Shown here: piece after piece, positions 13,988 to 48,498 of the stretch
Layout of the letters: each line of letters starts with the position of its first letter
Numbering within the stretch: the stretch's first letter is position 1
NCBI RefSeq assembly: GCF_900188375.1
Contig: NZ_FZOO01000001.1
Coordinates: 620,001 to 684,000 of the forward strand
Source: Geodermatophilus pulveris
GTDB lineage: Bacteria > Actinomycetota > Actinomycetes > Mycobacteriales > Geodermatophilaceae
Direction: 5' to 3'
DNA length: 64,000 bases
Made by a program: the position numbers and the translations under genes
The notes under the pieces: generated by a model
Told to the model about the DNA's origin: nothing
What the model saw: the letters and a program-made list of their open reading frames with translations, nothing else
Databases searched by the model: none

Positions 13988-14043
13988 GAGGACCCCGTCC
14001 TCCTCACCCCTCGCAGGCTCGGGGCGAGCCTCGGGACGGGGCC
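13988..14043 (+). repeat. Stop-codon-associated hairpin repeat, copy A (recG/rsmD)
   Basis: Begins two bases after the recG stop and ends at the base before the rsmD ATG. It has the outer stem CCCCGTCC/GGACGGGG and the conserved centre CTCGCAGGCTCG, whose inner arm is complemented by CGAGCCT. The element fills the whole spacer, so any ribosome binding site of rsmD must come from it. Five related copies occur in the window. Confidence 0.88.
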
Positions 14044-14598
14044 ATGACCAGGCTGGTCGCGGGGGTCGCGGGCGGGCGCCGGCTGCGGGTGCCGCCGTCG
14101 GGCGTGCGGCCCACCGGCGACCGCGCGCGGGAGGGGCTGTTCAACACCCTCTCGACGCTGCTGGACCTCGAGGGCGCCACCGTCCTCGACCTCTACGCCG
14201 GCTCCGGTGCGCTCGGGCTGGAGGCGCTCAGCCGCGGCGCGGCGCAGGTGGTGTTCGTGGAGCACGCCCCCCGCGTGCTGCCGGTGCTGCGGGCCAACCT
14301 GGACGCCGTCGGCCTGCCCGGCGGACGGGTGGTGCCGGGCTCGGTGCCCACCGTCGTCGCCGGGGCGCCGCCGGCCCGCTTCGACCTGGTCCTCGCCGAC
14401 CCGCCCTACGCCACGCCGCCGGCCGACGTGGTCGGCGTGCTGCAGGCGCTGGTCAGCGGCGAGTGGCTGGCCGAGGGCGCCGTCGTGGTGGTCGAGCGGC
14501 CGAGCCGCGAGGCGCCGTTCGCCTGGCCGACACCCCTGCGCGGCCTGCGCGACCGCCGCTACGGCGAGGCGGTGCTCCGGTACGGTCGCTGTCCGTGA
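14044..14598 (+). CDS. rsmD: 16S rRNA (guanine(966)-N(2))-methyltransferase
   Basis: Methylates G966 of 16S rRNA using S-adenosylmethionine. The SAM motif VLDLYAGSGALGLEAL spans about 48-63 and the catalytic DPPY is at 119-122. The opening RLVAGVAGGRRLRVP and VRPTGDRAREGLFN are family hallmarks. Its 184 residues are typical. It is followed by coaD with a GTGA overlap, a common bacterial pairing. Its last codons (TAC GGT CGC TGT) use unusually T-rich choices for this genome and contain a -10-like sequence for coaD. Confidence 0.96.
   Translation: MTRLVAGVAGGRRLRVPPSGVRPTGDRAREGLFNTLSTLLDLEGATVLDLYAGSGALGLEALSRGAAQVVFVEHAPRVLPVLRANLDAVGLPGGRVVPGSVPTVVAGAPPARFDLVLADPPYATPPADVVGVLQALVSGEWLAEGAVVVVERPSREAPFAWPTPLRGLRDRRYGEAVLRYGRCP
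14581..14586 (+). promoter_or_regulatory. Candidate internal -10 (TACGGT) for coaD
   Basis: TACGGT within the last codons of rsmD lies 8 nt before the coaD GTG, the spacing expected for a leaderless start. The local GGT and TGT codons are rare in these genes, which may reflect selection on the DNA sequence. It could still be chance. Confidence 0.3.
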
Positions 14599-15083
14599 GA
14601 CGTGCCGTCTGCCCCGGGTCGTTCGACCCCGTGACCAACGGGCACGTCGACGTCATCACCCGGGCCGCGGCCCTGTACGACGAGCTCGTCGTCGCCGTGC
14701 TGGTCAACCCCGGCAAGGCCGGGCTGTTCACCGTCGACGAGCGCATGGCGCTGCTGCGCGACGCGGTCGCCGACGTGCCCAACGTGCGGGTCGACAGCTT
14801 CCAGGGCCTGCTCGTCGACTACTGCCGCGCCCACGACGTCCCGGTGATCGTCAAGGGGCTGCGGGCGGTCAGCGACTTCGAGTACGAGCTGCAGATGGCG
14901 CAGATGAACCGCGAGCTGGCCGCGGTGGAGACGCTGTTCGTCCCCACCGCCCCGCAGGTCGGCCACCTGTCCTCCAGCCTGGTCAAGCAGATCGCCACCT
15001 TCGGCGGGGACGTCTCCGGCCTGGTGCCCAAGGCCGTGCACGAGCGGCTGGTCGCGCAGCGGGAGCGGGAGGGCAGTCCGTGA
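14595..15083 (+). CDS. coaD: Phosphopantetheine adenylyltransferase
   Basis: Transfers AMP to 4'-phosphopantetheine in coenzyme A synthesis. The nucleotidyltransferase motif is GSFDPVTNGHVDVI (8-21, T/HxGH at 14-17), followed by VIVKGLRAVSDFEYELQMAQMN and the C-terminal HLSSSLVKQIA loop that matches the ISSTxxR-type motif. Length is 162 residues. The GTG start overlaps the rsmD stop and its own stop overlaps the next gene by 4 bp. Confidence 0.97.
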   Translation: MRRAVCPGSFDPVTNGHVDVITRAAALYDELVVAVLVNPGKAGLFTVDERMALLRDAVADVPNVRVDSFQGLLVDYCRAHDVPVIVKGLRAVSDFEYELQMAQMNRELAAVETLFVPTAPQVGHLSSSLVKQIATFGGDVSGLVPKAVHERLVAQREREGSP

Positions 15084-15772
15084 CCGAGGTGGTGTACCGC
15101 CTGTACGAGGTCGTCGACGAGCTGGGCAGCGTCATCGAGAACGCCCGCAGCGTGCCGATGTCCGGCGGGACGTGCATGGTGTCCCGCGACATGCTGCTCG
15201 ACCTGCTCGACGACCTCCGGGAGAACCTGCCCGCCGAGGTGCACAAGGCCGGCGCGATCGTGGAGCAGCGCACCGAGATCCTCCAGCAGGCGCAGGCCGA
15301 GGCCGAGCGGCTGACCGGGCGCACCCGCAGCGAGACCGAGCAGGTCGTCGGCGCGGCCCGCCGGCAGCGGGAGGAGATCCTCGGCACGGCCCGGCGGCAG
15401 CGCGACGACCTGCTCACCCGCGCCCAGGCCGAGGCCGAGGACCTGCTCGCCCGCGCCGAGGAGGAGGCCGAGCAGATCGTCGAGCAGGCCCGCCGGCACC
15501 ACGAGGCCGTCCTCGCCGACGCGCAGGCCCAGCACGCGGAGATCCTGGCGGCCGCGCAGGCCGAGCACGAGCGGCTGGTCAGCGAGACCGAGGTCTACCG
15601 CGGCGCCGTGGACCGCGCCGACGAGCTGGGGGCGCAGACCGCGGCGGACGTCGCCCGCATGCGCACCGAGGTCGACGAGTACGTCGACAGCCGGCTCGCC
15701 GACTTCGGCGGCACGCTGGAGCGGATGCTGCGCTCGGTGGAGAAGGCCCGGTCCAGCCTCCGCGCGACCTGA
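15080..15772 (+). CDS. SepIVA-like DivIVA-family coiled-coil protein
   Basis: A 230-residue protein with a short N-terminal domain (YRLYEVVDELGSVIENARSV, SGGTCMVSRDMLLDLLDDL) and then a long, Ala/Glu/Gln/Arg-rich coiled coil from about 60 to 180 containing repeated QAEAE and ARRQR units. Its place next to coaD and upstream of DUF177-rpmF-rnc matches Mycobacterium Rv2927c, known as SepIVA, which is needed for division and envelope growth. I infer the same role: a membrane-curvature or septum-linked scaffold. The GTG start overlaps the coaD stop. Confidence 0.78.
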   Translation: MTEVVYRLYEVVDELGSVIENARSVPMSGGTCMVSRDMLLDLLDDLRENLPAEVHKAGAIVEQRTEILQQAQAEAERLTGRTRSETEQVVGAARRQREEILGTARRQRDDLLTRAQAEAEDLLARAEEEAEQIVEQARRHHEAVLADAQAQHAEILAAAQAEHERLVSETEVYRGAVDRADELGAQTAADVARMRTEVDEYVDSRLADFGGTLERMLRSVEKARSSLRAT

Positions 15773-15801
15773 GCCGGGACGGCGCCGTCCGCGCGATCGG
15801 G

Positions 15802-15807
15802 TAGGCT
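15802..15807 (+). promoter_or_regulatory. Candidate -10 (TAGGCT) upstream of DUF177-rpmF-rnc
   Basis: TAGGCT in the gap after the SepIVA-like gene lies about 75 nt before the ATG at 15882. The same hexamer occurs upstream of ffh. No convincing -35 is seen. Confidence 0.35.
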
Positions 15808-15881
15808 GACCTCCTGGTCCGACCGCCGGAGGTCCCGTACCCCCGCCGGGCCCTTCCCCGCTGCCTACCGCGAGTACCGAC

Positions 15882-16502
15882 ATGCCTGCCGCACCGCTGC
15901 CCCGCTCCGGCGCCGCGTCCCCGGACGCCCGGCGTCCGGCCGCCAACCCCTGGTCCGTGGACCTGCGCGAGCTCGGCCGCCGGGCCGGGTCGATGCACGA
16001 GCTGGAGCGCTCGCTCCCCGCGCCCGCCGACTGGCGGGTGGAGCTCATCGGCGTCCCCGAGGGCGCCCCGGTCGCGCTGCGGCTGCGGCTGGAGTCGGTG
16101 ATGGAGGGGGTGCTCGTCTCCGGCGAGGTCGACGTCCCCGTCGCCGGCTCCTGCGCCCGCTGCCTCGAGCCGGTCGAGGACACCCTGGAGCTCGACGTCC
16201 AGGAGCTGTTCGCCTATCCGGGCAGCACCACGGAGGCCACGAGCGAGGAGGACGAGGTCCGCTCCGTCGAGGGCGAGCACATCGACCTCGAGCCGATGGT
16301 CCGCGACCTCGTCGTGCTGAGCCTGCCGCTGGCGCCGACCTGCACCGACGACTGCGCCGGGCTGTGCGTCGACTGCGGGCAGCGGCTCGACGACCTGCCG
16401 GCCGACCACACCCACGAGCAGCTCGACCCGCGCTGGGCCGGGCTGGCCGCACGACTCGCCGCACCGGGCACCCCCGGCGCGGCCGACCCAGAGGAGAACT
16501 GA
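15882..16502 (+). CDS. DUF177 (YceD) family protein
   Basis: A 206-residue protein with the YceD core [36 protein letters not shown] and a C-terminal Cys cluster ([18 protein letters not shown]) that probably binds zinc. YceD proteins are consistently encoded just upstream of rpmF and have been linked to 23S rRNA or 50S maturation. Here one base separates it from rpmF, with GAGGAGAA as the intervening ribosome binding site. The N-terminal 20 residues are low-complexity. Confidence 0.92.
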
Positions 16503-16503
16503 C

Positions 16504-16683
16504 GTGGCCGTCCCGAAGCGGAAGATGTCCCGCTCCAACACCCGCGCCCGGCGTTCGCAGTGGAAGGCCACCGCGCCCACCCTGACGCCGTGCCCGAACA
16601 AGGCCTGCGGCCAGCCCAAGCCGCCGCACCAGGCCTGCCGGAACTGCGGCCAGTACGCCGGCCGCCAGGTCCTCTCCGTCTGA
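16504..16683 (+). CDS. rpmF: 50S ribosomal protein L32
   Basis: A 59-residue protein starting [20 protein letters not shown], with a zinc ribbon formed by [10 protein letters not shown] and CRNCGQYAG. It is a structural component of the 50S subunit. The GTG at 16504 follows GAGGAGAACTGAC. The downstream rnc frame is open through the rpmF stop, with a CTG overlapping it. Confidence 0.96.
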
Positions 16684-16700
16684 CGCCGGTCGCACCAGCC

Positions 16701-17525
16701 GTGGGGACGACGCCACCAGGCGCCCGGCCGGCCGCCGACGGGTCGGCCGGCCGCTCCCCGGCCGGTGCCGCGCACGCCGACCGCGCGGCCGCCTGGCTCC
16801 TCGACGCCCTCGGCATCGAGCTGCCCGGCGGCCTGCTCGCGCTGGCCCTGACCCACCGGTCCTGGGCCTACGAGCACGGCGGGCTGCCCACCAACGAGCG
16901 CCTGGAGTTCCTCGGGGACTCGGTGCTCGGCCTGGTCGTCACCGACGAGCTCTACCGGCGCCACCCCGAGCTGCCCGAGGGGCGGCTGGCGAAGCTGCGC
17001 GCCTCCGTGGTCAACATGACCTCCCTGGCCGGCGTCGCCCGCCGGCTCGGCGACGGCGGCTTGGGCCCGCACCTGCTGCTGGGCCGCGGGGAGGAGACCA
17101 CCGGCGGCCGGCACAAGGACTCGATCCTGGCCGACGCGGTGGAGGCCCTCATCGGCGCCGTGCACGTCGGCCTCGGCCTGGACGCCGCGGCGGCCATCGT
17201 GCACCGGCTGTTCGACCCGCTGCTCGACCAGGCCGCCACCCGGGGCGCCGGCCTGGACTGGAAGACCAGCCTGCAGGAGCTGGGCGCCCGGCTGGGCCTG
17301 GGCGCCCCGGCCTACCAGATCGAGGACGCCGGCCCCGACCACGCCAAGACCTTCACCGCCGCCGTCGTCCTCGCCGGCACCGTCCACGGCCGCGGGGCCG
17401 GGCGCACCAAGAAGGCCGCCGAGCAGGAGGCCGCCGAAGCCGCCTGGCGGGCGCTGTCCGACGTCACGCCGGAGGGGGCGCCCCGGGACGGCGAGGCCGT
17501 CGCAGCCGTGACCGGCGCGGGCTGA
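16701..17525 (+). CDS. rnc: Ribonuclease III
   Basis: Cuts double-stranded RNA in rRNA processing. The catalytic signature [13 protein letters not shown] (65-77 from this start, E69 and D73) is intact, with [16 protein letters not shown] as the second acidic cluster. A C-terminal dsRNA-binding domain contains [21 protein letters not shown] 16701 lacks a ribosome binding site; the frame is open to a CTG at 16680 that overlaps the rpmF stop as CTGA and may be the real start. The N-terminal 25 residues are low-complexity. mutM follows after four bases. Confidence 0.95.
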
Positions 17526-17529
17526 GCGC

Positions 17530-18420
17530 GTGCCCGAGCTGCCCGAGGTCGAGGTGGTCCGGCGCGGCCTGGAGCGCTGGGTCGCCGGGCGCACCGTCGC
17601 CACCGTCGAGGTGCACCACCCACGCGCCGTCCGCCGGCACCTGGAGGGCACCGGCCACTTCGTCGCCGCCCTGACCGGCCGTACCCTCACCGCCGCCCAC
17701 CGCCGCGGCAAGTACCTGTGGCTGCCGCTGGCCGAGACCGACGGCACCCCCGCCGGGCAGGCGCTGGTCGCCCACCTCGGGATGAGCGGCCAGCTGCTGG
17801 TGGAGAAGCCCAGCCAGCCCGACGGCACGCACCTGCGCGCCCGGTTCACCTTCACCGACGGCGGCCGGGAGCTGCGCTTCGTCGACCAGCGCACCTTCGG
17901 CGGGCTGGCGGTCGAGCCGTGCGCGGGAGAGGAGATCCCGGCCCGGCTGGCGCACATCGCCATCGACCCGCTGGACGGCTCCTTCGACACCGACGCGTTC
18001 AGCGCGGCCCTGCGCCGCCGGCGCACCGAGGTCAAGCGCGCCCTGCTGGACCAGACGCTGATCGGCGGGGTCGGCAACATCTACGCCGACGAGTCGCTGT
18101 GGCGGGCCCGGCTGCACGGCGCCCGCCCCACCGACCGGCTCACCCGGGCCCAGGTGGCCGAGCTGCTGGAAGGGGTGCGCGACGTGCTCACCGAGAGCCT
18201 GGCGCAGGGCGGGACGTCCTTCGACTCCCTCTACGTCGACGTCAACGGGCGCAGCGGCTACTTCTCCCGCCACCTGGCGGTCTACGGCCAGGCCGACCGG
18301 CCCTGCCCCCGGTGCGGGACGCCGATCGTGCGCGAGTCGTTCATGAACCGCTCCAGCTACAGCTGCCCGCGCTGCCAGCCGCGGCCCCGTTCGTCACCCG
18401 CCCGCCCGAGGCGGCCGTGA
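17530..18420 (+). CDS. mutM: Formamidopyrimidine-DNA glycosylase
   Basis: Removes 8-oxoguanine and other oxidised purines. It starts [15 protein letters not shown] with the catalytic Pro2 and Glu3, has the K57-region RRGKYLWL, the helix-two-turn-helix ([18 protein letters not shown]) and a C-terminal zinc finger with Cys pairs CPRCGTPI and SYSCPRCQP. Length is 296 residues. The stop overlaps the acylphosphatase start (GTGA). The position between rnc and smc matches mycobacterial fpg. Confidence 0.97.
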
Positions 18421-18683
18421 GGCGGGTCGTCGCCCTGGTCGGAGGTTCGGTGCAGGGCGTGGGCTACCGGTGGTTCGTCCGCGGGCGGGCCACCGCAGCG
18501 GACCTGGCCGGATCGGCGACCAACCTCCCCGACGGCCGCGTCGAGGTCGTGCTCGAGGGTCCGGACGCCGCGGTGGCCGCCGTCCTGGCCGATCTCGACG
18601 GTCCACGGGCGCCCGGCGCGGTGACGTCGGTCGACGTCCGTGACGAGCCGGTGCAGGGCGTCCGCGGGTTCACCACGACGTGA
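18417..18683 (+). CDS. acyP: Acylphosphatase
   Basis: A small 88-residue hydrolase of acyl phosphates. The signature [13 protein letters not shown] contains the catalytic Arg, and [15 protein letters not shown] holds the catalytic Asn. The GTG start overlaps the mutM stop. The location just before smc is the same as in mycobacteria. Confidence 0.95.
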
Positions 18684-18831
18684 CGAACGCGACACCCGCC
18701 TGACACGATGGGTCTGCAGTGTGCCCGTTGACCTGCGTGTCCGGGCCTGTCACCCTGGGGACACAGGACCGCGCCGACCGTCGTACGGGGCGCAGGTCAT
18801 CCCCTCACGCAGTCGAAAGGCCGTTGTCGCC

Positions 18832-19023
18832 ATGGCCAAGGCCCTGTTCGGTCACGTCGTCGCCCCCGCGGAGCTCCGAGTAGTCGAGGAGAACGCCGTC
18901 CTGCGGGCCCGGGTGCGTCGTCTGGAGCAGGAGCTGGAGGCGCTCCGCGCCCAGCGGGACGCCGCCATCGCCCACGAACTGCTCAGCCTCGCCGGCGACA
19001 ACGCCGAGCCCGCGCTCGCCTGA
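18832..19023 (+). CDS. Small conserved coiled-coil protein upstream of smc
   Basis: A 63-residue protein, MAKALFGHVVAPAELRVVEE then a short coiled coil (LRARVRRLEQELEALRAQRD) and a C-terminal HELLSLAGDN. ATG 18832 is preceded by GTCGAAAGGCC, which holds a weak AAAGG site. It has its own upstream gap of about 148 bp that includes TTGACC at 18728. I know this family as a short conserved actinobacterial protein without a firm function. It ends in a TGA immediately followed by a hairpin repeat. Confidence 0.75.
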   Translation: MAKALFGHVVAPAELRVVEENAVLRARVRRLEQELEALRAQRDAAIAHELLSLAGDNAEPALA

Positions 19024-19083
19024 AGAAGGACCCCTCTGCCCCCCGCCACTCGCAGGTTCGCAGCGGGACCCTGCAGAGGAGCC
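19024..19083 (+). repeat. Stop-codon-associated hairpin repeat, copy D (before smc)
   Basis: Starts at the first base after a TGA stop (AGAAGGACCCC). The outer stem differs from copies A and B: CCTCTGC pairs with GCAGAGG, and CCCGC with GCGGG. The centre CTCGCAGGTTCG is conserved. The changes on both sides of the stem keep pairing. Confidence 0.85.
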
Positions 19084-19109
19084 GACCGCTGGGCAGGTAA
19101 CTCGCCGTC

Positions 19110-22100
19110 GTGCATCTCTCGAGCCTGACGCTGAAGGGCTTCAAGTCCTTCGCGTCCGCGACGACCCTGCGCCTCGAGCCGGGGATCACCGCCGTCGTCG
19201 GCCCCAACGGCTCCGGGAAGTCCAACGTCGTCGACGCCATCGCCTGGGTCCTCGGCGAGCAGGGCGCCAAGAGCCTGCGCGGCGGCAAGATGGAGGACGT
19301 CATCTTCGCCGGCACCGCCGGCCGCCCCGCCCTGGGCCGGGCCGAGGTGACGCTGACCATCGACAACGCCGACGGCGCGCTGCCGATCGAGTACACCGAG
19401 GTCTCGATCACCCGGCGCATGTACCGCTCCGGGGAGAGCGAGTACGAGATCAACGGCGACAAGGTCCGGCTGCTCGACGTCCAGGAGCTGCTCAGCGACG
19501 CCGGCATCGGCCGGGAGATGCACGTGGTCGTCGGCCAGGGCCAGCTCGACGCCGTCCTGTCCGGCCGCCCCGAGGACCGCCGCGCCTTCGTCGAGGAGGC
19601 CGCCGGCGTCCTCAAGCACCGCAAGCGCAAGGAGAAGGCCCTCCGCAAGCTCGAGGGGATGCAGGCCAACCTCGACCGCCTCGGGGACCTCACCGCGGAG
19701 CTGCGCCGCCAGCTCAAGCCGCTGGGCCGGCAGGCCGAGGTGGCCCGCCGCGCGGCCGGCGTGCAGGCCGACCTGCGCGACGCCCGGCTGCGGCTGCTGG
19801 CCGACGACCTCGTCCGGCTGCGCGACGCCCTCGACCAGGACGTCGCCGACGAGGCCGCGGCCCGCCGGCGGAGGGCCTCCGTCGAGGCCGAGCTGGCGCG
19901 GACGGCGTCCCGCGAGTCGGCGCTGGAGACCCGGCTGGCCGCCGACGCACCGCTGCTGGCCGCCGCCCAGGACACCTGGTACCGGCTGTCCGCCCTCACC
20001 GAGCGCTTCCGCGGCACCGCCCAGCTGGCCGCCGAGCGGCACCGGCACCTCTCCGCCGCCCCGCCCGCGGGCGCCGCCGGCCGCGACCCCGACCAGCTGG
20101 AGGCCGAGGCCGAGCGGGTGGCCGCCACCGAGGCGCAGCTCGCCACCGGCCTGGACGCCGAGCGCGGCCGGCTGGCGACGGCCGTGGCCTCCCGCACGGA
20201 GCTGGAGACCGCGCTCGCCGCCGCCGAGCGGGCCTGGGTCGCCGCGGCCCGCGCGCTGGCCGACCGCCGGGAGGGCCTGGCCCGGCTGTCCGGCCAGGTC
20301 GCCGCAGCCCGCTCCCGCGTCACGGCGGGGGAGGCGGAGATCGAGCGGCTCACCGCGGCCGCCGCCGAGGCCGCCGACCGCGCCGAGGTGGCCGCCGGCC
20401 GGCTGGCCGAGCACCGGGCGGCGCTGGCCGGCCGGGAGGACGAGGACGTCGCGCTGGTCACCGCCCACGCCGACGCGGTCGCCGCGCACGCCGAGGCGGC
20501 CCGCGCGGTCACCGAGCTCGCCGCCGCCGAGCGGGCCGCCGAGCGCGACCGTGCCTCCGCGCAGGCCCGCCGGGACACCCTCGCGCAGGGGCTGGCGCCG
20601 GCCGACGGCGTCGCCGCCGTGCTGGCCGCCGGCCTGCCCGGTGTCCTCGGCGCGGTCCCCGAGCGGGTCACGGTCGCGCCCGGCGCGGAGGTGCCGCTGG
20701 CCGCCGCGCTGGCCGGCCTGGCCGACGCCCTCGTCGTGGACTCCGTCGCCGGGGCCGCCGCCGCACTCGCCCACCTCAAGGACGTCGCCGGCGGCCGCGC
20801 CGGCCTGCTGGTCACCGGCGGCCCGCCCGCCCTGCCCCGCGACGGCTGGCCGCCGCTGCCCGAGGGCGTGCGCTGGGCGCGCGACCTCGTCGACGCCCCC
20901 GCGGAGCTGCAGCCCGCCCTGGACCGCGCCCTGGACCGCGTCGCCGTCGTCCCCGGCCTGGACGCCGCGGTCACCCTGGTCACCACCCACCCGCGGGTGC
21001 GGGCGGTGACCGCCGACGGCGACCTGGTCGGCGCCGACCGGGCGGTCGGCGGGCAGGCCGACGCTCCCTCGGGGCTGGAGGTCCGCGCCCGGGTGGACGA
21101 CGCCGAGCGGGACCTGGCCGCCGCCTCCGCCCGTGCCGCCGAGCTCGCCGACCGGCTGGCCGCGGCGCGAGACGCCGCCCGCGAGCGCTCGGCCGACGTC
21201 GAGGCGACCCTCGCCGCACGCCAGGCGGCCGACCGCACCCGCTCGGCCGCCGCCGCGCAGCTCGCCGAGCGGGGCGCCGCCGCCCGGTCGGCCACCGCCG
21301 AGGCCGAGCGGTCGGCGGCCGCGCGGGTCCGTGCCGAGCAGGCCCTGGAGCAGGCGCGGACCGCGCTGGCCGGCCTGGAGCAGCGGCTCGCCGACGCGCA
21401 GGCGGCGCCGGTCGCCGACGAGCCCGACCCGGCCGAGCGGGACCGGCTGCGCCGGGAGACGGCCGCCGCCCGGCAGGCGGAGACCGAGGCGCGGCTGGCC
21501 GTGCGGACCGCCGAGGAGCGGGCCCGGGCGCTGACCGGGCGGGCGGAGTCGCTGCGCCGGCAGGCCGGCCAGGAGCGGGCCGCCCGCGAGCGGGCCGCCG
21601 CCGCGCGGGCCGCCCGCGAGCGCGGCGCGCGGGTGGCCGCCGGGGTGCGGGCCGGCGCCGAGGCGGCGCTGACCGCGCTGGCGTCGTCCCTGGCCCGGGC
21701 CGCCGCGGAGCGCGACGAGCTGGCCCGGCTGCGCACCGCGGCGGAGGCCGGGCTGCTGGAGGTGCGCGTCGCCGTCCGCGCGGCCACCGCCGAGCTGGAG
21801 CGGCTCACCGACGAGGTGCACCGCGACGAGGTGGCCCGCGCCGAGCAGCGCTACCGCATCGAGGCGCTGGAGGGCCGCGCCGCCGAGGAGTACGGCGTCG
21901 ACCTGCCCACCCTGGTCGCCGAGTACGGCCCGGCCGCACCGGTGCCGCCCACCCCGGCGGAGGTCGCCGCCGCGCAGGCGGCGGGGGAGCCGGAGCCGGA
22001 GGCGGTGCCCTACGACCGGGCCGCCCAGGAGCGCCGCGCGGCCCGGGCCGAGCGCGACCTGGCCACGCTGGGCAAGGTGAACCCGCTGGCGCTGGAGGAG

Positions 22101-22676: not shown

Positions 22677-22777
22677 CCGTCGCGGTCGCGCCCGGATCGC
22701 GCCGTCGCGCACCGACCGGTAGGACGGGGGACGGCGCGCCGCCCGGCGCCCCCTGCCCCGACGACGCGAGGACGCCC

Positions 22778-25992: not shown

Positions 25993-25996
25993 CCGC

Positions 25997-27765: not shown

Positions 27766-28992
27766 ATGGAGTTCGTGCTGATCGCGATCGCGATCCTGCT
27801 CGTCGGCCTGGTCCTCGGGGTCAGCCTCCTCGTCGGCCGCGGCCGGCGGACCACCCGGCTGGACGACGACGCCGCCACCGGCACCACGCTGACCCGGCCG
27901 CGCCCGCCCGCCCCGGCGCCGGAGGCCCCGCCCCGCCCGTCGGGGTCCACGGCCAGCGGGCTGGGGACCACCGCCGAGCCGGACGCCGTGCAGCCCGAGG
28001 CGCCCCCGGCGGTCGTCCTGCCCCCGGCCGAGCCCGAGCCGGGGCTGGTCTTCGAGACCCCGCCGCCGTCGTCGGGCCGGCTGGTCCGGCTGCGCTCCCG
28101 GCTGGCCCGCTCCCAGTCCGACCTGGGCCGCGGCCTGCTCACCGTCCTGGCCCGCGAGCGGCTCACCGAGGACGACTGGGAGGAGCTCGAGGAGACCCTG
28201 CTCGCCGCCGACGTCGGCGTGGCCGCCACCCAGCAGATCGTCGCCCGGCTGCGCACCCAGTCGATGGTGCTGGCCACCGCGTCCGGTGCGGAGCTGCGCG
28301 CGCTGCTGGTCCGCGAGCTCACCGCGGTGCTGGGCCCGGACCTCGACCGCAGCCTGGCCGTGGAACGCCGCGACGGGCGGCCGGGGATCGTCCTCGTCGT
28401 CGGCGTCAACGGCGCGGGCAAGACCACGACCTGCGGCAAGATCGCCCGCGTCCTCGTCGGCGACGGCCGCAGCGTGGTCCTGGGCGCCGCGGACACCTTC
28501 CGCGCCGCGGCCGCCGACCAGCTGGAGACCTGGGGCGAGCGGGTCGGCGTGCTCACCGTGCGCGGCCGGGAGGGGGCCGACCCGGCCTCGGTCGCCTTCG
28601 AGGCCGCCCGCACGGGGGTGGAGGGCGAGGTGGACACCGTCGTCGTCGACACCGCCGGGCGGCTGCACACCAAGGGCGGCCTCATGGACGAGCTCGGCAA
28701 GATCAAGCGGGTCGTGGAGAAGGTGGCGCCGGTGACCGAGGTGCTGCTCGTGCTCGACGCCACGACCGGGCAGAACGGCGTCGTCCAGGCGCGGGTGTTC
28801 ACCCAGGCGGTCACCGTGACCGGCGTCGTGCTCACCAAGCTCGACGGGACGGCCAAGGGCGGCATCGTCGTCTCCGTGCAGCGCGAGCTGGGCATCCCGG
28901 TCAAGCTGGTCGGGCTGGGGGAGGGCGCCGACGACCTGGCCCCCTTCGAGCCGGAGACCTTCGCCGAGGCACTGGTCGGCGGCGCGGACTGA
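27766..28992 (+). CDS. ftsY: Signal recognition particle receptor FtsY
   Basis: A 408-residue SRP receptor GTPase. An N-terminal transmembrane helix (FVLIAIAILLVGLVLGVSLL) anchors it, an acidic/Pro-rich A domain runs to about 105, and the NG domain contains the P-loop GVNGAGKTTTCGK from about 213, DTFRAAA, VVDTAGRLHTKGGLMDEL and TKLDGTAKGG. It works with Ffh, encoded at 40.6 kb. The stop codon is followed at once by a hairpin repeat. Confidence 0.97.
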   Translation: MEFVLIAIAILLVGLVLGVSLLVGRGRRTTRLDDDAATGTTLTRPRPPAPAPEAPPRPSGSTASGLGTTAEPDAVQPEAPPAVVLPPAEPEPGLVFETPPPSSGRLVRLRSRLARSQSDLGRGLLTVLARERLTEDDWEELEETLLAADVGVAATQQIVARLRTQSMVLATASGAELRALLVRELTAVLGPDLDRSLAVERRDGRPGIVLVVGVNGAGKTTTCGKIARVLVGDGRSVVLGAADTFRAAAADQLETWGERVGVLTVRGREGADPASVAFEAARTGVEGEVDTVVVDTAGRLHTKGGLMDELGKIKRVVEKVAPVTEVLLVLDATTGQNGVVQARVFTQAVTVTGVVLTKLDGTAKGGIVVSVQRELGIPVKLVGLGEGADDLAPFEPETFAEALVGGAD

Positions 28993-29053
28993 AGGAGGAC
29001 CCGCCTGCCCCCCCACCGCTCGCAGGCTCGCGGCGGGCCCCTGCAGTCGGGCC
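28993..29053 (+). repeat. Stop-codon-associated hairpin repeat, copy E (after ftsY)
   Basis: Begins directly after the ftsY TGA with AGGAGGACCC. The centre CTCGCAGGCTCG is flanked by CCGC/GCGG and CTGC/GCAG pairs, closest to copy D. It may terminate ftsY transcription, although no T-run follows. Confidence 0.82.
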
Positions 29054-29133
29054 GTTCCGGTACGTCACCGGCTCGGCGCGGGCCCCTGGAGGGCAGCCAC
29101 CGGTCAGCGGTCCGCGGCGGGCTGCCCGAGGTG

Positions 29134-32800: not shown

Positions 32801-35543
<2,743 letters not shown>

Positions 35544-35601
35544 AGAAGGACCCCGTCCTCCTCACGCCTCGCAGGCTCGGCGCGAGCCTCGGGACGGGGC
35601 C
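35544..35601 (+). repeat. Stop-codon-associated hairpin repeat, copy B (glnK/glnD)
   Basis: Begins at the base after the glnK stop (AGAAGGACCCC). It has the outer stem CCCCGTCC/GGACGGGG and a perfect inner hairpin AGGCTCG-GCG-CGAGCCT. It is the best-formed copy, nearly identical to copy A and close to copy C. Its placement inside the operon could reduce glnD expression relative to amt-glnK. Confidence 0.9.
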
Positions 35602-35675
35602 GTCGGTCGGGGTGGCGGGCAGGCCCGCCACCCCGGCCGACGCCGTTCGAGGGTCCCCGACACCGAGGGGGAGAC

Positions 35676-38054: not shown

Positions 38055-38067
38055 GCTCCGCGGTCCT

Positions 38068-38364: not shown

Positions 38365-38402
38365 GCGAGGACGGACGGGGACGACACCGCGGGGGCCGGC
38401 GG

Positions 38403-39895: not shown

Positions 39896-40084
39896 GGGGG
39901 CCTCCCGGGTGTGGCGAGGTCTCCCCCGGTCCCGGAGGACCGGCGCCACCCGGGCCGGAGCCGGGACTGACGGGTGACGGCTGTCGCTGGCGCGGTCGGG
40001 TACTCCCCTCGCTGGAAGCACGATACAGGAAGACGTCATCAGGTGACAGGGGGCCGGGGGACTCCGTCGGCGCGGCTCCTCCCG

Positions 40085-40090
40085 TACGGT
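40085..40090 (+). promoter_or_regulatory. Candidate -10 (TACGGT) for leaderless winged-helix gene
   Basis: TACGGT lies 7 nt before the GTG at 40098, and no ribosome binding site is present between them. This is the same geometry as at fakA, lepB and rnhB. Confidence 0.45.
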
Positions 40091-40097
40091 CCTGCCC

Positions 40098-40412
40098 GTG
40101 ATCGCGCCCTCCGGGTGGACCTTCCTCTCCAACCACGGCCACGTGCTGGTCAGCCTGGCCGCCGACCCGGACGCCCGGATCCGCGACGTCGCCGACCGGG
40201 TGGGCATCACCGAGCGCGCGGTGCAGACGATCGTCGGAGACCTCGAGGCCGCCGGCTACGTCGTCCGGGAGCGGGTCGGCCGGCGCAACCGCTACACCGT
40301 GGTGCCGCGGGGCCGGTTCCGGCACCCCCTCGAGCAGCACGTGCGGGTCGGTGACTTCCTGGCGCTGGTGCTCGGCGCCGGTGACCCCCCGCCGCCGCCG
40401 GGACCCGCCTGA
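40098..40412 (+). CDS. Winged helix-turn-helix regulator
   Basis: A 104-residue DNA-binding protein. The helix-turn-helix is IRDVADRVGITERAVQTIVG followed by DLEAAGYVVRERVGRRNRY as the wing, MarR/ArsR-like. The C-terminal 40 residues (HPLEQHVRVGDFLALVLG) may form a dimer helix. It lies divergent from the USP-like/baeRF pair across about 200 bp and may control it. A -10-like TACGGT sits just before the GTG. Confidence 0.8.
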   Translation: MIAPSGWTFLSNHGHVLVSLAADPDARIRDVADRVGITERAVQTIVGDLEAAGYVVRERVGRRNRYTVVPRGRFRHPLEQHVRVGDFLALVLGAGDPPPPPGPA

Positions 40413-40450
40413 CGGCTCCGCGCACCGGCCCGGCGGCGGGCCGCGCTGGT

Positions 40451-40456
40451 TAGGCT
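40451..40456 (+). promoter_or_regulatory. Candidate -10 (TAGGCT) upstream of ffh
   Basis: TAGGCT in the 149-bp gap would give ffh a leader of about 100 nt. The same hexamer precedes the DUF177 gene. No clear -35 is seen. I see no small SRP RNA gene in this gap. Confidence 0.35.
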
Positions 40457-40561
40457 GGCCCCAGGTGGCGCGACGGCTCCGGGGCTCCCGGGCGCCCGAG
40501 GCCGAGCAGCCGGTCGCAGCGACCGGCCGGCCGCGCCCGCGAGTTCTGACGAGGACGTGCT

Positions 40562-42147
<1,586 letters not shown>

Positions 42148-42151
<4 letters not shown>

Positions 42152-43227
42152 GCGCGCTGCACCTCTCCGGCGTCGTGCTGCCCGCGGGGGAGCACCGGGA
42201 CGTGTGGGTGCGCGACGGGCGGTTCACCTCCGAGCCGGTGCCCGGCGCGGAGACGGTGGGCCGCGGCGGCTGGCTGGTGCCGGGCCTGGTCGACGCGCAC
42301 TGCCACGTCGGCATCGCCCGCGGCGGGGGGCACGTCGCCGACCTCGCCGCCGCCCGGGAGCAGGCGCTGGCCGAGCGCGCCGCCGGGGTGCTGGCGCTGC
42401 GCGACTGCGGCTCCCCGGTCGACACCCGGGACCTGGACGGCGACCCGGAGCTCCCGACGATCGTCCGCGCCGGGCGGCACATCGCCCGCACCCGCCGTTA
42501 CATCCCCGGGCTGGCCGTGGAGATCGAGCCCGACGCGCTGGTCGAGGAGGTGCGGGTGCAGGCCCGCCGCGGCGACGGCTGGGTGAAGCTGGTGGGGGAC
42601 TGGATCGACCGCGGCGTCGGCGACCTCGCCCCGGAGTGGCCGGCCGACGCCCTCGCCGCGGCGATCGCCGCCGCGCACGCCGAGGGTGCCCGGGTCACCG
42701 CGCACACCTTCGGCACCGACGCGCTGCCCGACCTCGTCCGCGCCGGCATCGACTGCATCGAGCACGGCACCGGCCTGACCGAGGAGCTCGTCGGGGAGAT
42801 GGCCGCCCGCGGCACCGCCGTCGTCCCGACGCTGGTCAACGTGGCGAACTTCCCCGGCTTCGCGGCGGCGGGGGAGAAGCGGTTCCCCGCCTACGCCAGC
42901 ACGATCCGCCGGCTGCACGCCTCCTCGGGCGCCGTCGTCCGCGCCGCCTTCGACGCCGGCGTGCCGGTGTTCGCCGGCACCGACGCCGGCGGCGGCATCG
43001 ACCACGGCCGGATCGCCGACGAGGTGCGCGCCCTGCACGCGGCCGGGATCCCCGCCGAGGCGGCGCTGGCCGCGGCCTCCTGGTCGGCGCGCTCGTGGCT
43101 GGGGCTGCCCGGCATCGAGGACGGCGCCCCGGCCGACGTGGTCGTCTACGACGCCGACCCGCGTGCCGACCTCGACACCCTCGCCCGCCCGCAGCGCATC
43201 GTCCTGCGCGGCCGCGTCGTCGCCTGA
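42148..43227 (+). CDS. Amidohydrolase family protein
   Basis: A 359-residue metal-dependent hydrolase. Metal ligands are visible as DAHCHVG (HxH), the later VTAHTFGTDA and CIEHGTGL His residues, and FAGTDAGGGIDHG with the catalytic Asp. PGLVDAHCH and PADVVVYDADP (the C-terminal beta-sandwich return) are typical of the imidazolonepropionase/prolidase-like branch. The GTG start overlaps the ffh stop, a pairing seen in other actinobacteria. The substrate is unknown. Confidence 0.88.
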
Positions 43228-43238
43228 GGGCCCCCGAT

Positions 43239-43314
43239 GATCAGCTGAGCTGATCGTCGCGGGTCCTGGCTCACTGCCGGTCGTGAGCCCGGACCCGCGG
43301 AGGTGAGCCCGGAC
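43239..43314. repeat. Perfect palindrome and three 20-bp-spaced GTGAGCCcGGAC motifs upstream of proS
   Basis: GATCAGCT-G-AGCTGATC (43239-43255) is an exact palindrome. It is followed by a 12-mer in three copies: one inverted at 43263-43274 (one mismatch) and two direct and identical at 43283-43294 and 43303-43314. Their starts are exactly 20 bp apart, about two helical turns. They fill most of the 135-bp gap between the amidohydrolase and proS. Confidence 0.7.
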
Positions 43315-43362
43315 GCCGGAAGTCGCGCGCGGCCGCCGCCGGGCGCCTGGGAGACTCCCCGG

Positions 43363-45114
43363 GTGCTCCTTCGCATGTCGACCCTCTTCCTGCGCACCCT
43401 GCGCGACGACCCGGCCGACGCCGAGGTCCCCAGCCACCGCCTGCTGGTGCGGGCCGGCTACATCCGGCGGGCCGCGCCCGGCGGGTTCACCTGGCTGCCG
43501 CTGGGCTACCGCGTCTTCCGCAACGTCGAGCGGGTGGTCCGCGAGGAGATGGACGCGATGGGCGCCCAGGAGGTGCACTTCCCGGCGCTGCTGCCGCGCG
43601 AGCCCTACGAGGCCACCGGCCGGTGGACCGAGTACGGCCCCAACCTGTTCCGGCTGCAGGACCGCCGCGGTGTGGACCACCTGCTCGGCCCCACCCACGA
43701 GGAGATGTTCACGCTCCTGGTGAAGGACCTGTACTCCTCCTACAAGGACCTGCCGCTGTCGCTGTACCAGATCCAGACCAAGTACCGCGACGAGGCGCGG
43801 CCCCGGGCCGGGCTGTTCCGCGGCCGCGAGTTCACCATGAAGGACAGCTACTCCTTCGACGTCGACGACGCCGGGCTGGACCGCAGCTACGCCGCCCACC
43901 GCGACGCCTACATCCGCGTCTTCGACCGCCTGGGCCTGGACTACGTGGTCGTCTCGGCGATGTCGGGCGCCATGGGCGGGTCCCGCAGCGAGGAGTTCCT
44001 GCACCCGACCGCCATCGGCGAGGACACCTTCGTACGCTCCGCGGGCGGCTACGCGGCCAACGTCGAGGCGGTGACCACCGTCGTCCCGGACGAGGTGCCG
44101 ATCGACGGCCTGCCGGCCGCGCACGTCGAGGACACCCCCGACACCCCGACCATCGAGACCCTGGTCGCGGTCGCCCGCCAGCTGTTCCCGGACGCCGGGT
44201 ACACGGCGGCGGACACGCTGAAGAACGTCGTCGTCACCCTCGTGCACCCCGACGGCACCCGCGAGCCGCTGGTCGTCGGCCTGCCCGGCGACCGGGAGGT
44301 GGACGCCAAGCGGCTGGAGGCGCAGGTCGCGCCGGCCGAGGTCGAGCCGTTCACCGACTTCGCCGCGCACCCGGAGCTGGTCAAGGGCTACATCGGCCCG
44401 CAGGTGCTCGGCAGCGGGGGCAAGGCCGCCATCCGCTACCTCGTCGACCCGCGGGTGGTGCCCGGCACCCGGTGGATCACCGGGGCCAACGAGCCGGGCA
44501 GGCACGTGTTCGACCTCGTCGCCGGCCGGGACTTCGCCTGGGACGGCGTCATCGAGGCCGCCGAGGTGCTGCCCGGCGACCCCGCGCCCGACGGCTCCGG
44601 CCCGCTGGAGCTGGCCCGCGGCGTGGAGCTGGGCCACATCTTCGCCCTCGGCCGCAAGTACGCCGAGGCCCTGGGCCTGCAGGTGCTCGACGAGAACGGG
44701 AAGCTCGTCACGGTCACCATGGGCTCCTACGGCATCGGCGTCTCCCGCGCCGTGGCCGCCATCGCCGAGTCCACCCACGACGAGCTGGGCCTGGTGTGGC
44801 CGCGGGAGGTCGCGCCGGCCGACGTGCACGTGGTGGCCACCGGCAAGGACGCGGCGGTGTTCGAGGCCGCCGGGGCGCTGTCCGGCGAGCTGGTCGCCGC
44901 CGGGCTCACCGTGCTCTACGACGACCGGCCGAGGGTCTCGCCCGGGGTCAAGTTCAAGGACGCCGAGCTGCTGGGGATGCCGACGATCGTCACCGTCGGC
45001 CGCGGGCTGGCGCAGGGCGTCGTCGAGCTGCGCGACCGGGCCACCGGGGAGCGGTCGGAGGTGCCGGTGGCCGAGGCCGCCGCCGCGGTGCTGGCCGCCG
45101 TCCGAGGCTGGTGA
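43363..45114 (+). CDS. proS: Proline--tRNA ligase (bacterial type with editing domain)
   Basis: A 583-residue class II synthetase. It starts [20 protein letters not shown], the conserved opening of this type; the frame is open upstream but GTG 43363 fits the family. Motif 2 is [31 protein letters not shown] follows, the INS editing domain spans about 220-400 ([13 protein letters not shown]), and motif 3 is [19 protein letters not shown]-terminal anticodon-binding domain ends it. The TGA is followed at once by a hairpin repeat. Confidence 0.96.
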
Positions 45115-45169
45115 AGGACCCCGTCCTCCTCACGCCTCGCACGCTCGGCGCGAGCCTCTGGACCGGGCC
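45115..45169 (+). repeat. Stop-codon-associated hairpin repeat, copy C (after proS)
   Basis: Begins directly after the proS stop with AGGACCCCGTCC. It has the same left half as copies A and B, but the right arm has decayed (CTGGACCGGG for CGGGACGGGG). It lies three bases before the end of the convergent AraC-family gene. Confidence 0.82.
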
Positions 45170-45171
45170 GC

Positions 45172-46107
45172 TCACCGGCCCCCGGCGACCCGCGCCCGGT
45201 AGCGCGACGGCGTCGTGCCGTAGGCCGCGCGGAAGGCCCGGCCGAACACCGAGGGGTCGGTGAAGCCGCACCGGTGCGCCACCGCCGACAGCGGCACGTC
45301 CGGTGCGCGGGCGAGCTCGTCGCGGGCGCGCTCCAGCCGCCGGCGCCGCACGTAGCCCGCCACGGTGTCCTGGCGGCCGGCGAACAGCCGGTGCAGCTGC
45401 CGGACGGAGACGAAGTGGGCGGCCGCGATGTCGCGCGGGCCGAGCGCGGGGTCGCCCAGGTGCTCCTCCACGTGGGCCCGCACGGCGCGCAGCAGGGCGT
45501 CCTCGCCGCGCGGCGTCCCGGCCGGGGGAGGGGGCGCGGCCCCGGCGGCGGTGGTGACCAGCCCGAGCAGGTCACCGGCGAGCCGGTCGGCGGGCCCGGC
45601 GTCGACGACGTCGGGGCTGCCCACCAGGTCGGTGATCATCCGGCCCAGCACCCTGGTCAGGCCGGCCGAGCCGTCCAGCCGCCGCGCGGTCAGCCCGCCG
45701 GCGGAGGCCTCGGGCCGGCACCAGGTGAGCACGAGCAGCGACCAGGCCGGCGCGGTCCCGGCGGAGAGCTCCCAGGTGAACGGCCGGTCGGTCTCGTAGA
45801 GGGCGTAGTCCCCGGGCCGCAGCCAGCACTCCCGGCCGTCCTGCTGCACGCGGGCGGCGCCCCGCTCCAGCAGCCCGACCTGCACGTAGCGCCGCCCGTC
45901 GGCGCGGGCCAGGCCCGCCGTGCGCACCGCCCGCTGGTCCACCGACCCCACCCGGGACAGCTGCAGCGAGCCCACGGCCCGGCTGGTGACCTCGCCGGCG
46001 ACCGGCCGGTCGCCGGCCGGGGTGACGTCGAGGCCGACGAAGTGCTCGCCCAGCAGGTCCCGCCACGGCCGGACGCCGGTGCACCGGGCACTCGTCGACG
46101 TCGGCAT
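45172..46107 (-). CDS. AraC-family transcriptional regulator
   Basis: A 311-residue regulator. The N-terminal half resembles the AraC-binding-like domain that senses a ligand (LQLSRVGSVDQRAVRT, YVQVGLLERGAARVQQDG, WLRPGDYALYETDRPFTWEL). The C-terminal double helix-turn-helix is clear: RDIAAAHFVSVRQLHRLF and VPLSAVAHRCGFTDPSVFGR with FRAAYGTTPSRYR. ATG 46107 follows GAGGTCCCG. It is divergent from the molybdopterin oxidoreductase gene across 186 bp and is the obvious candidate to control it. Confidence 0.92.
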   Translation of the reverse strand: MPTSTSARCTGVRPWRDLLGEHFVGLDVTPAGDRPVAGEVTSRAVGSLQLSRVGSVDQRAVRTAGLARADGRRYVQVGLLERGAARVQQDGRECWLRPGDYALYETDRPFTWELSAGTAPAWSLLVLTWCRPEASAGGLTARRLDGSAGLTRVLGRMITDLVGSPDVVDAGPADRLAGDLLGLVTTAAGAAPPPPAGTPRGEDALLRAVRAHVEEHLGDPALGPRDIAAAHFVSVRQLHRLFAGRQDTVAGYVRRRRLERARDELARAPDVPLSAVAHRCGFTDPSVFGRAFRAAYGTTPSRYRARVAGGR

Positions 46108-46293
46108 CGGGACCTCGCTCGGGTCGGCCGCGCGGGACCGGTCGGCGGGTCCCGGGCAGGACGCCGCCGAGCGTGCCACGGGGACACCGGCCCGGGGAAG
46201 GCGCGGGGAGTCGAGGACCGGGCACGCAGCGTCGACCGGCGACCCGGGTGTCCCGCCACGATCGCCGCAGCGCCGGACCCCCAGGAGGCGACC

Positions 46294-48420
46294 GTGTCCG
46301 TGACCGACCTGCCGATGCCCGGGACGACGACGGTGCACGGCGCCTGCCCGCTGGACTGCCCGGACACCTGCGCGATGGAGGTCACCGTCGAGGACGGCCG
46401 GGCCGTCCGCGTCCGCGGCGACCGCTCGCACCCGTACACCCGCGGCGTGCTCTGCGTGAAGATGAACGACTACGAGCGCACGGTCTACAGCCCCGACCGC
46501 GTGCTGTACCCGCTGCGGCGCACCGGGCCCAAGGGCAGCGGGCAGTTCGCGCGGATCTCCTGGGACGACGCGCTGGACGAGATCGCCGGGCGGTTCACCG
46601 AGATCGCCGCGACGTCCGGCCCCCAGGCGATCATGCCGGTCAGCTACCTGGGCACCCAGGGCATCCTCAACGGCCTCAACGTCGGGGACCCGTTCTTCAA
46701 CCGGCTGGGCGCCACCATCAGCGAGCGCACCTACTGCGACTCCGGGTCGTGCACCGCCTACGCGATGACGGTCGGCGCGACCGCCGGCGTCGACCCGGAG
46801 TCCTTCGTGCACGCCCGGTACATCCTCATCTGGGCCAACAACATGCTCAGCACGAACCTGCACCTGTGGCCGTTCGTGGCCGAGGCGCAGCGGCGCGGCG
46901 CCAAGGTCGTCGTCATCGACCCCGTCCGGCACCGGACGGCGCAGCACGCCGACTGGTACATCCCGATCCGGCCGGGCACCGACGGCGCGCTGGCGCTGGC
47001 GATGATGCACGTGATCATCGGCGAGGGGCTGACCGACGACGACTACGTCGCCCGGTACACGGTCGGGTTCGACGAGCTCGCCGAGCGGGTGCGGCAGTAC
47101 ACCCCCGAGTGGGCCAGCGGGGAGACCGGCATCCCCGCCGAGGACATCAGGACGCTGGCCCGCGAGTACGCCGCGGCCGAGCCGTCGGTGATCCGGATCG
47201 GGGTCGCGATCGAGCGGCACGCCGGCGGCGGGCAGACGGTGCGCGCCATCTCCTGCCTGCCGGCGCTCACCGGGGCCTGGCGCCGGCCCGGCGGCGGGCT
47301 GCTGCAGCTGCCGCTGTGGGCGTTCCCGGTCAACTGGCCGGCCTTCCTCGGCGCGGAGTTCATCCGCCCGGGCACCCGCGTGGTCAACCAGTTCCTGCTC
47401 GGCCGGGCGCTGACCGGCGCGCTCGACCTGGACCCGCCCATCCGCGCGCTGATGGTCTACAACAGCAACCCGCTGGTGGTCTGCCCGGAGCAGGACACGC
47501 TGGTCGCCGGGCTGTCGCGGGAGGACCTGTTCACCGTCGTGAGCGAGCACTTCCTCACCGACACCGCCGACTACGCCGACATCGTGCTGCCGGCGACCAC
47601 CCAGCTCGAGCAGCGGGACCTGATGTTCTCCTGGGGCCACCTCTACGTGACGAGCAACGAGCCGGCCGTCGCGCCGCTGGGGGAGGCGGTGCCCAACACC
47701 GAGCTCTTCCGCCGGCTGGCCGCGCGGATGGGCTTCACCGAGCCGGTCTTCACCCGCACCGACGAGCAGATGGTCGCCGAGGCGTTCGACTGGTCCTCGC
47801 CGGTGCTGGAGGGCATCACGCCGGAGACGCTGGCGCGGGACGGCTGGGCCCGGCTGCGGCTGCCCGGGCCGGACGAGTACGCCCCGCACGCGGAGGGCGG
47901 CTTCCCGACGCCGTCGGGCAGGGTGGAGTTCGTCTCCTCGGCCGCCGCCGGGGGCAACTTCGTCCTGCCGCTGTTCCGCCAGGGCTCCACCGAGCACCAG
48001 CCCGGCGACCCGGTGGACCCGCTGCCGCACTACGTCCCGCCGCGGGAGCGGCCGGACGGCCGGTACCCGCTGGCGCTGCTGTCGCCGAAGTCGCACGCCT
48101 ACCTCAACTCCAGCTTCGCCGACCGGCCCGGTCAGCAGCGGGTGCAGGGCGAGCCCGCGCTGCACGTGCACCCGGAGGACGCCGCGGCCCGCGGGCTGGC
48201 CGACGGCGCGCAGGTGTCCGTCGTCAACGACCGGGGCCGCTTCACCGCGCGGCTGCACGTCACGACGGACGTCGCACCCGGCGTGGTCGTCTCGCCGATG
48301 GGCGCCTGGCGCAAGCACTCGCGCGGCGCGACGGTGAACGCGCTGAGCCCCTCGGTGTTCGCCGACCTGGGCAACGCGCCGACCTTCTCGGACAACCTCG
48401 TGCAGGTCGAGCCCGCCTGA
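46294..48420 (+). CDS. Molybdopterin-dependent oxidoreductase (DMSO reductase family)
   Basis: A 708-residue enzyme. The N-terminal [4Fe-4S] motif is CPLDCPDTC (C18, C22, C26) plus C54 in GVLCVK. The Mo-cofactor domains include SERTYCDSGSCTAY (140s-150s), LIWANNMLSTN, VVIDPVRHRTA, YNSNPLVV and the C-terminal NDRGRF and MGAWRKHS segments. No Tat signal is seen, so it should be cytoplasmic. The natural substrate is unknown. GTG 46294 sits behind CCAGGAGGCGA. No partner subunits are adjacent, so electrons must come from a separate donor. Confidence 0.9.
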   Translation: MSVTDLPMPGTTTVHGACPLDCPDTCAMEVTVEDGRAVRVRGDRSHPYTRGVLCVKMNDYERTVYSPDRVLYPLRRTGPKGSGQFARISWDDALDEIAGRFTEIAATSGPQAIMPVSYLGTQGILNGLNVGDPFFNRLGATISERTYCDSGSCTAYAMTVGATAGVDPESFVHARYILIWANNMLSTNLHLWPFVAEAQRRGAKVVVIDPVRHRTAQHADWYIPIRPGTDGALALAMMHVIIGEGLTDDDYVARYTVGFDELAERVRQYTPEWASGETGIPAEDIRTLAREYAAAEPSVIRIGVAIERHAGGGQTVRAISCLPALTGAWRRPGGGLLQLPLWAFPVNWPAFLGAEFIRPGTRVVNQFLLGRALTGALDLDPPIRALMVYNSNPLVVCPEQDTLVAGLSREDLFTVVSEHFLTDTADYADIVLPATTQLEQRDLMFSWGHLYVTSNEPAVAPLGEAVPNTELFRRLAARMGFTEPVFTRTDEQMVAEAFDWSSPVLEGITPETLARDGWARLRLPGPDEYAPHAEGGFPTPSGRVEFVSSAAAGGNFVLPLFRQGSTEHQPGDPVDPLPHYVPPRERPDGRYPLALLSPKSHAYLNSSFADRPGQQRVQGEPALHVHPEDAAARGLADGAQVSVVNDRGRFTARLHVTTDVAPGVVVSPMGAWRKHSRGATVNALSPSVFADLGNAPTFSDNLVQVEPA

Positions 48421-48498
48421 GGGGGACCTCTGTTCCCGCCTCCCATCCGGGCCCGCCCCGAACCTGCGAGGGGTGGGGAGGCGGGGGGTCCTCCGTCT
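48421..48498 (-). repeat. Stop-codon-associated hairpin repeat, copy F (inverted, before rpsP)
   Basis: Read on the minus strand it gives GGAGGACCCCCCGCCTCCC, the conserved centre CTCGCAGGTTCG, and a complementary right half GGGAGGCGGG ending GGTCCCC. Outer GGACC/GGTCC and inner CCCGCCTCCC/GGGAGGCGGG arms pair. It follows the oxidoreductase stop directly, but in the opposite orientation to the other copies, and lies in the rpsP promoter region. Confidence 0.8.

Follow-up and report, generated by a model that had tools for sequence, protein, structure and literature searches.

The stretch of Geodermatophilus pulveris DNA analysed here, called the window throughout, comprises 64,000 nt (positions 620,001 to 684,000 of contig NZ_FZOO01000001.1) and holds six copies of a family of short intergenic hairpins. 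The 719,972-base contig in which the window lies is referred to as C14, and the genome to which it belongs measures 4.38 Mb. The six elements were found where the initial annotation had placed them, and a covariance model (R1), built from 21 of 46 copies selected for one stem geometry, recovered exactly these six in the window at E 0.1. Five of them follow the TGA of the upstream gene, as had been described, with the motif GGACC beginning 4, 4, 4, 4 and 1 nt past it. The centre said to be common to all six, CTCGCAGGYTCG, is present in five, the copy at 45115 having CTCGCACGCTCG instead. The features are as follows.

13986..13989, + strand: NRRA spacer of copy 1, joining the stop codon to GGACC.
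13990..14043, + strand: copy 1, GGACC to GGGGCC, outer stem CCCCGTCC/GGACGGGG, 4 nt past the TGA at 13983-13985; its 3′ end abuts an ATG at 14044.
19024-19027, 28993-28996 and 35544-35547, + strand: NRRA spacers of copies 2-4, like that of copy 1.
19028..19083, + strand: copy 2, outer stem CCTCTGC/GCAGAGG, 4 nt past the TGA at 19021-19023; the site compared in 26 genomes.
28997..29053, + strand: copy 3, 4 nt past the TGA at 28990-28992.
29054..29069, + strand: tail on the 3′ side of copy 3, GTTCCGGTACGTCACC; GTTCCAGCACGTCACC is the most frequent form in the set.
35548..35601, + strand: copy 4, outer stem CCCCGTCC/GGACGGGG, 4 nt past the TGA at 35541-35543.
45116..45169, + strand: copy 5, loop CTCGCACGCTCG, 1 nt past the TGA at 45112-45114, the spacer being the single A at 45115; within a convergent gene pair.
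48437..48491 (also delimited as 48434-48494), − strand: copy 6, in inverted orientation with respect to the gene upstream, which ends at 48420, and without a preceding stop codon.

Copy 6 was the weakest match to the covariance model in the window (47.3 bits). The orthologous site of copy 4 carries a near-identical copy in genome G013 and a different, inverted copy in G024. Directly 3′ of copy 4 lies a terminator-like long hairpin (35602-35640), and a very similar one stands behind the orthologous copy of G013. Rfam 15 gave no match above its gathering score in the window; two matches near copy 1 were far below their thresholds.

The family is abundant in this genome. The exact centre occurs 56 times in the 4.38 Mb, against 0 for a reversed-pattern control. 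R1 gave 53 matches in C14 (E 0.1) and at least 151 in the whole genome, where 150 candidates were scored, and extrapolation from the one contig, weak matches included, puts the number at about 320 copies per genome. Scans of 112 Geodermatophilaceae genomes, of 16 genomes of other families and of a draw from the order were run with stricter filters, by which weak matches are lost; the per-genome match counts of these sets and of the own genome are lower bounds. Further copies were found family-wide, with matches in 101 of the 112 Geodermatophilaceae genomes and in 9 of 12 genera. Of the 11 genomes without a match, G041 and G069 are near-complete; the other nine belong to genera g21-g23, and many of these nine are incomplete. 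Copy number varied within genera: model matches per genome in genus g18 were 0, 2 and 4 up to at least 48, and otherwise copy-rich genera include low-count genomes. Counts of the core CTCGCANGCTCG against its control agreed with the model counts for some genomes (10 versus 5 in G041, 1 versus 4 in G057, 83 versus 19 in G043) and less so for G069 (34 versus 15). The draw from the order comprised 298 genomes, at most 247 of them from outside Geodermatophilaceae; among the 73 genomes listed, matches were present in 50 family genomes and 3 others. The non-family genomes with strong copies were G164, G173 and G248, with 1-2 each, and these copies may reflect either horizontal transfer or assembly contamination. 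No match was found with the stricter filters in the 16 genomes of other families. A pattern scan returned at least 80 records, and among those listed all were Geodermatophilaceae by name or metagenome-assembled genomes labelled Geodermatophilaceae or Frankiales. Phage, plasmid and viral collections gave no match, so carriage by such elements is unsupported. A literature search, with subscription journals mostly outside its scope, found no description of this hairpin family, which may be in print elsewhere.

A detailed set of 168 copies was taken from regions of three genomes (C14, 53; G024, 71; G013, 44). The unit is mostly 52-58 nt long and reads, in sense orientation, NRRA-GG-A-CC-(outer stem)-CCCC-R-CCN-loop CTCGCNNGCTCG-NGG-C-GGG-NCCCT-(outer stem′)-GGCC. 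The stem is thus two-part, its outer portion of about 7-10 bp being hypervariable but paired, and the loop is 12 nt or similar. RRA directly precedes GGACC in 139 of 168 copies, and a tail like GTTCCAGCACGTCACC (16 nt, at least 11 of 16 bases matching) lies 3′ of 42 of 168. In the G013 region, 3′ halves of the element with the tail are repeated in succession at reversed coordinates 267450-267515 and 385475-385540.

Pairing was assessed in two samples. The first, 46 copies (40 of 51 outside the window and the six inside), was chosen by the loop and so carries no structure bias; its outer stems were located by best-match search. Inner pair 1 was C-G in 20 and G-C in 16 of these copies, inner pair 2 C-G in 34 and G-C in 11, and outer stems such as CCCCGTCC, CCTCGGTGC and CCACGCTTC were each matched by the exact complement. 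The second was an alignment of 45 of the 168 model matches, all of exactly 62 nt and picked by eye, with two rows out of register and the weak 62-nt match L103:2331-2392 excluded. In these 45 copies, which as model matches are biased toward the modelled structure, both-side changes occurred in 12 of 18 pairs, and 90.8% of cells were paired on the sense strand, above all 500 shuffles, versus 96.0% on the complementary strand. The better pairing of the complementary strand comes chiefly from the fourth inner pair, an A.C in 30 of 46 sense copies and hence a G.U opposite; several further pairs also favour that strand. Moreover, predicted folding gave the complementary strand the greater stability in 162 of 168 copies under RNA parameters and in 152 of 168 under DNA parameters. 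This folding advantage favours recognition of the strand opposite the mRNA, and we infer that this folded strand, as single-stranded DNA or antisense RNA, may be the one recognised. The initial annotation had reported that stems differ while pairing is kept and had taken this as a sign of selection on an RNA structure. The observation is confirmed, but it does not prove such selection, because the complementary strand pairs better, one subfamily often seems (by eye) to have taken the place of another between species, and repair templated by the hairpin could keep the arms matched.

The position of the copies relative to genes was then compared with random intergenic placement, gene ends in C14, G024 and G013 being called with a home-made codon-usage gene caller. 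The proposed enrichment at stop codons was borne out: 107 of 168 copies start 0-8 nt past a sense stop (40 of 53 in C14, 39 of 71 in G024, 28 of 44 in G013), while about 5 were expected (2.0, 2.0 and 1.5, respectively). Together with the 56 exact centres against 0 in the control, this excess indicates that the family is beyond chance. The spacing is precise. The exact distance was 4 nt in 59 copies, all behind TGA, and 1 nt in 24; the seven copies behind TAG lie at 5 nt (four), 2 nt (two) and 8 nt (one). The commonest junction is (C)TGA-NRRA-GGACC, with C before the TGA in 56 of the 59 distance-4 copies versus 376/610, 216/331 and 187/331 of all TGA stops in the three regions (56-65%). A further 105 copies came from loci of other family members, among them Blastococcus, Modestobacter, Goekera and Trujillonella, after removal of 14 matches without a recognisable GGACC and of repeated sequences. 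A stop triplet within 6 nt closed a frame of at least 50 codons in 82 of them, 9 had a triplet without such a frame and 14 had no triplet; since 2512 of 5000 stop triplets taken at random likewise end such a frame, this result shows the triplet more than the gene. In C14, plus-strand stops carried a copy more often than minus-strand stops (34/276 versus 6/159, p 0.003), and no such skew was present in G024 or G013. Replication-strand bias was set aside as evidence, 74 of 116 listed G013 and G024 copies being lead-oriented, much like genes. Genes flanked by elements on both sides numbered 6, 10 and 5 in the three regions and, from their first residues, look like housekeeping genes. The gene at C14 526963-527572 is one flanked on both sides, as are its orthologues in G024 and G013; from its first residues it presumably resembles cobalamin adenosyltransferase.

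A unit that either inserts at stop codons or donates them had been suggested, with the TGA as a possible part of the element. Insertion is supported by orthologous differences, nesting and copy number, and donation is not. Stops at the 107 filled sites were TGA in 95, TAG in 7 and TAA in 5, and TGA accounted for 610/705, 331/377 and 331/387 of all stops in the three regions (86-88%). At the 19024 site, the gene ends with TGA or TAA in the genomes that have no copy, and with TGA or TAG where a sense copy is present. The stop codon therefore seems to belong to the gene and not to the element, because a stop is present at empty sites too and the share of TGA at filled sites is no higher than elsewhere; a general donation of the TGA finds no support in these counts. 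On the other hand, the stop was TAG in the empty and TGA in the filled state of gap 322, and TAG in the empty and TAA and TGA in the filled states of gap 364, so local donation is possible in at least two gaps. Copies away from called gene stops were also informative. Among 61 such copies a stop-like triplet stood 0-6 nt in front of 21 of 46 non-nested and 3 of 15 nested ones (the nested class follows a crude rule, and more are nested by eye), against a background of 7.8%. In divergent gaps TAG stood in front of 8 of 12 copies, mostly as the complement of the neighbour gene's TAGGCT-like box, which we take to be a promoter −10 box. The excess of triplets at copies off gene stops points to target choice, and the stop-like triplet seems to be the insertion target both at gene ends and away from them.

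The states of orthologous sites differ between related genomes. Read by eye in 26 genomes of the genus, the 19024 site holds a sense copy in 8, an inverted copy in 6 and a degenerate or collapsed copy in 3, and is without a copy in 9; an automatic tally (7 sense, 1 inverted, 18 none) overlooks several copies. Collapsed copies, with little beyond the outer stem and the inner stem-loop lost, were seen at C14 147926-147960 and, at the 19024 site, in G002 and G007. A filled/empty difference was present in 34 gaps passing length filters. In gap comparisons of C14 with two relatives, 15 were filled in C14 only and 52 in the relative only; gaps empty in C14 were filled in 30 of 174 cases in G024 and 22 of 185 in G013. 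Gaps filled in at least two genomes numbered 35, of which 11 differed in orientation when the first copy per genome was compared, and subfamilies, judged by eye, often differed. Copies nested inside copies were also seen by eye, often between ACCG/CTCG and the 3′ inner stem and with the host loop lost; tandem forms are present as well. The filled, inverted, other-subfamily, collapsed and empty orthologous states, the nesting and the high copy number make the hairpins look like mobile units.

Several observations weigh against mobility or its proposed basis. The copies have the same orientation in 24 of the 35 shared gaps, and gaps filled in C14 were filled in G024 in 24 of 28 and in G013 in 19 of 30 cases, far more often than gaps empty in C14; such sharing of occupied sites would also be seen if copies were retained by selection or simply inherited. 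Among the copies compared, none could be read as a clean insertion flanked by a target-site duplication, and by eye nested copies appear to remove about 10 nt of the host loop. G069, although without a model match, has 34 core matches to CTCGCANGCTCG versus 15 in the control, so that its copies may be decayed or divergent rather than absent. One inner pair accounts for much of the pairing edge of the complementary strand, and the energy difference between strands may partly reflect loop composition. In addition, no mover was found for the family. The Y1_Tnp domain (PF01797) had no match in the 112 family genomes, its profile matching 5 of 14 named genomes as a control, and a Y1 transposase (RAYT/IS200) was rejected as the mover for this absence. 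A reverse transcriptase (PF00078) is present in 49 of the 112 genomes but not in the genome of the window, and so is not required there. An autonomous long copy was sought at 784 RRAGGACC sites (C14, G024, G013 and the pattern-scan loci), which gave no candidate: a matching 3′ arm lay within 130 nt in 101 and farther in 12, and of these 12, judged from their ends, 11 were chance-like and one resembled a neighbouring copy.

On this evidence the hairpins are probably a REP-like, non-autonomous mobile family of Geodermatophilaceae, moved in trans by an enzyme other than a Y1 transposase. This is proposed because the copy number, the palindrome and the turnover are REP-like, PF01797 is lacking, and REPs free of a dedicated transposase have been described (PMC3733652). 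The trans-acting enzyme would recognise the folded complementary strand, which keeps G.T or G.U where the sense strand has A.C, and would place the unit beside CTGA- or TAG-like target triplets. Surviving copies would mostly be those whose triplet is the gene's own stop or borders a promoter −10 box, since insertion there would spare the gene; the sense orientation would be fixed by the same process. Template switching between hairpins is probably a further source of turnover and may preserve the complementarity of the arms, and effects on host genes, such as ribosome stalling or altered mRNA stability, would be secondary. A more specific form, in which a new non-Y1 single-strand hairpin enzyme moves the folded bottom strand family-wide and 3′ untranslated regions (UTRs) are repeatedly colonised at one exact distance from the stop, is conceivable but doubtful.

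The copies could instead have spread and turned over with no transposition at all, through slippage during replication, template switching and gene conversion between hairpins, processes that would also keep their arms complementary. The nested copies that, by eye, substitute the host loop, the outer-stem-only forms at orthologous sites (G002, G007), the repeated 3′ halves and the different subfamilies at one site across species agree with this. The presence of copies at many unrelated genes with the preferred CTGA|NRRA junction and the family-wide spread are not readily explained by such processes, which makes them unlikely as the whole account. It is likewise improbable that the hairpins serve the upstream gene as 3′-UTR signals, either terminating transcription or marking sites of RNA processing, and are maintained because their RNA structure is under selection. 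The 107 copies behind sense stops, the strong covariation (both-side changes in 12 of 18 pairs) and the occupancy shared by relatives would be expected of such signals, but sister species have no element or an inverted one at the same gene, copies also occur in divergent promoters and within other copies, and the complementary strand pairs better. Moreover, convergent gene pairs were not enriched over co-directional ones (p 0.23, 0.86 and 0.84), a second strong hairpin followed downstream in 10 of 63 cases with an element versus 63 of 447 without, and within 20 nt downstream TTTT was present in 0 of 168 and TTT in 4 of 168 copies. The suggestion of a family of 3′-end processing signals is thus not upheld, given the lack of convergent-pair enrichment and the usual rate of downstream hairpins. 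Domesticated hairpins that control translation by stalling ribosomes near stops, as reported for E. coli REPs, are a very remote explanation, since most copies do lie 0-8 nt from a stop but stop-like triplets are enriched also where no gene ends and presence at a given gene differs between species.

The preferred interpretation, a REP-like unit moved in trans, can be set beside known systems. GTAG REPs, for which Y1-type RAYT transposases are proposed as movers (PMC2817692, PMC3733652), are likewise short imperfect palindromes, intergenic and present in high copy, and in E. coli a share of them lies near stops (PMC12306157). The present family differs in that no Y1_Tnp was found in 112 genomes, GTAG precedes the foot in 0 of 168 copies and the unit is longer and has a tail. 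In E. coli, about 11% of REPs lie no more than 15 nt from a stop, and REPs that close are reported to stall ribosomes (PMC12306157). Here 107 of 168 copies lie within 8 nt; an effect of the element on its upstream gene is therefore plausible by analogy. CGTC REPs, mainly of alpha-Proteobacteria, are also described as lacking a dedicated transposase, but they have stems of 8-9 bp, loops of 4-5 nt and a CGTC tag (PMC3733652), in contrast to the two-part stem and the loop of 12 nt or similar seen here. CGTC stood within 6 nt after GGCC in only 4 of 168 copies, and 12 of 168 carried its complement on the 5′ side. The MIRUs of mycobacteria insert into DTGA sites. They are, like the present family, actinobacterial, apparently mobile and inserted at translation signals in a way that leaves the gene unharmed, but they are described as inserted at start codons and as carrying an open reading frame coupled to the gene (PMC12548453), whereas the hairpins here lie mostly behind stops. 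A sense start codon follows at 0-5 nt in only 2 of 168 copies. Intrinsic terminators are also GC-rich hairpins after a stop codon; the present family differs in its conserved loop, its lack of a T run and the usual rate of further downstream hairpins.

The best-studied REPs are attributed to RAYTs, and what is found here is an abundant, stop-precise REP-like family in bacteria whose genomes gave no Y1 domain in the search. The hairpins of Geodermatophilaceae offer a defined system in which to seek a second mover of hairpin repeats. Moreover, because orthologous sites are available in filled, empty and inverted states, one can test directly how a hairpin next to a stop affects its gene.

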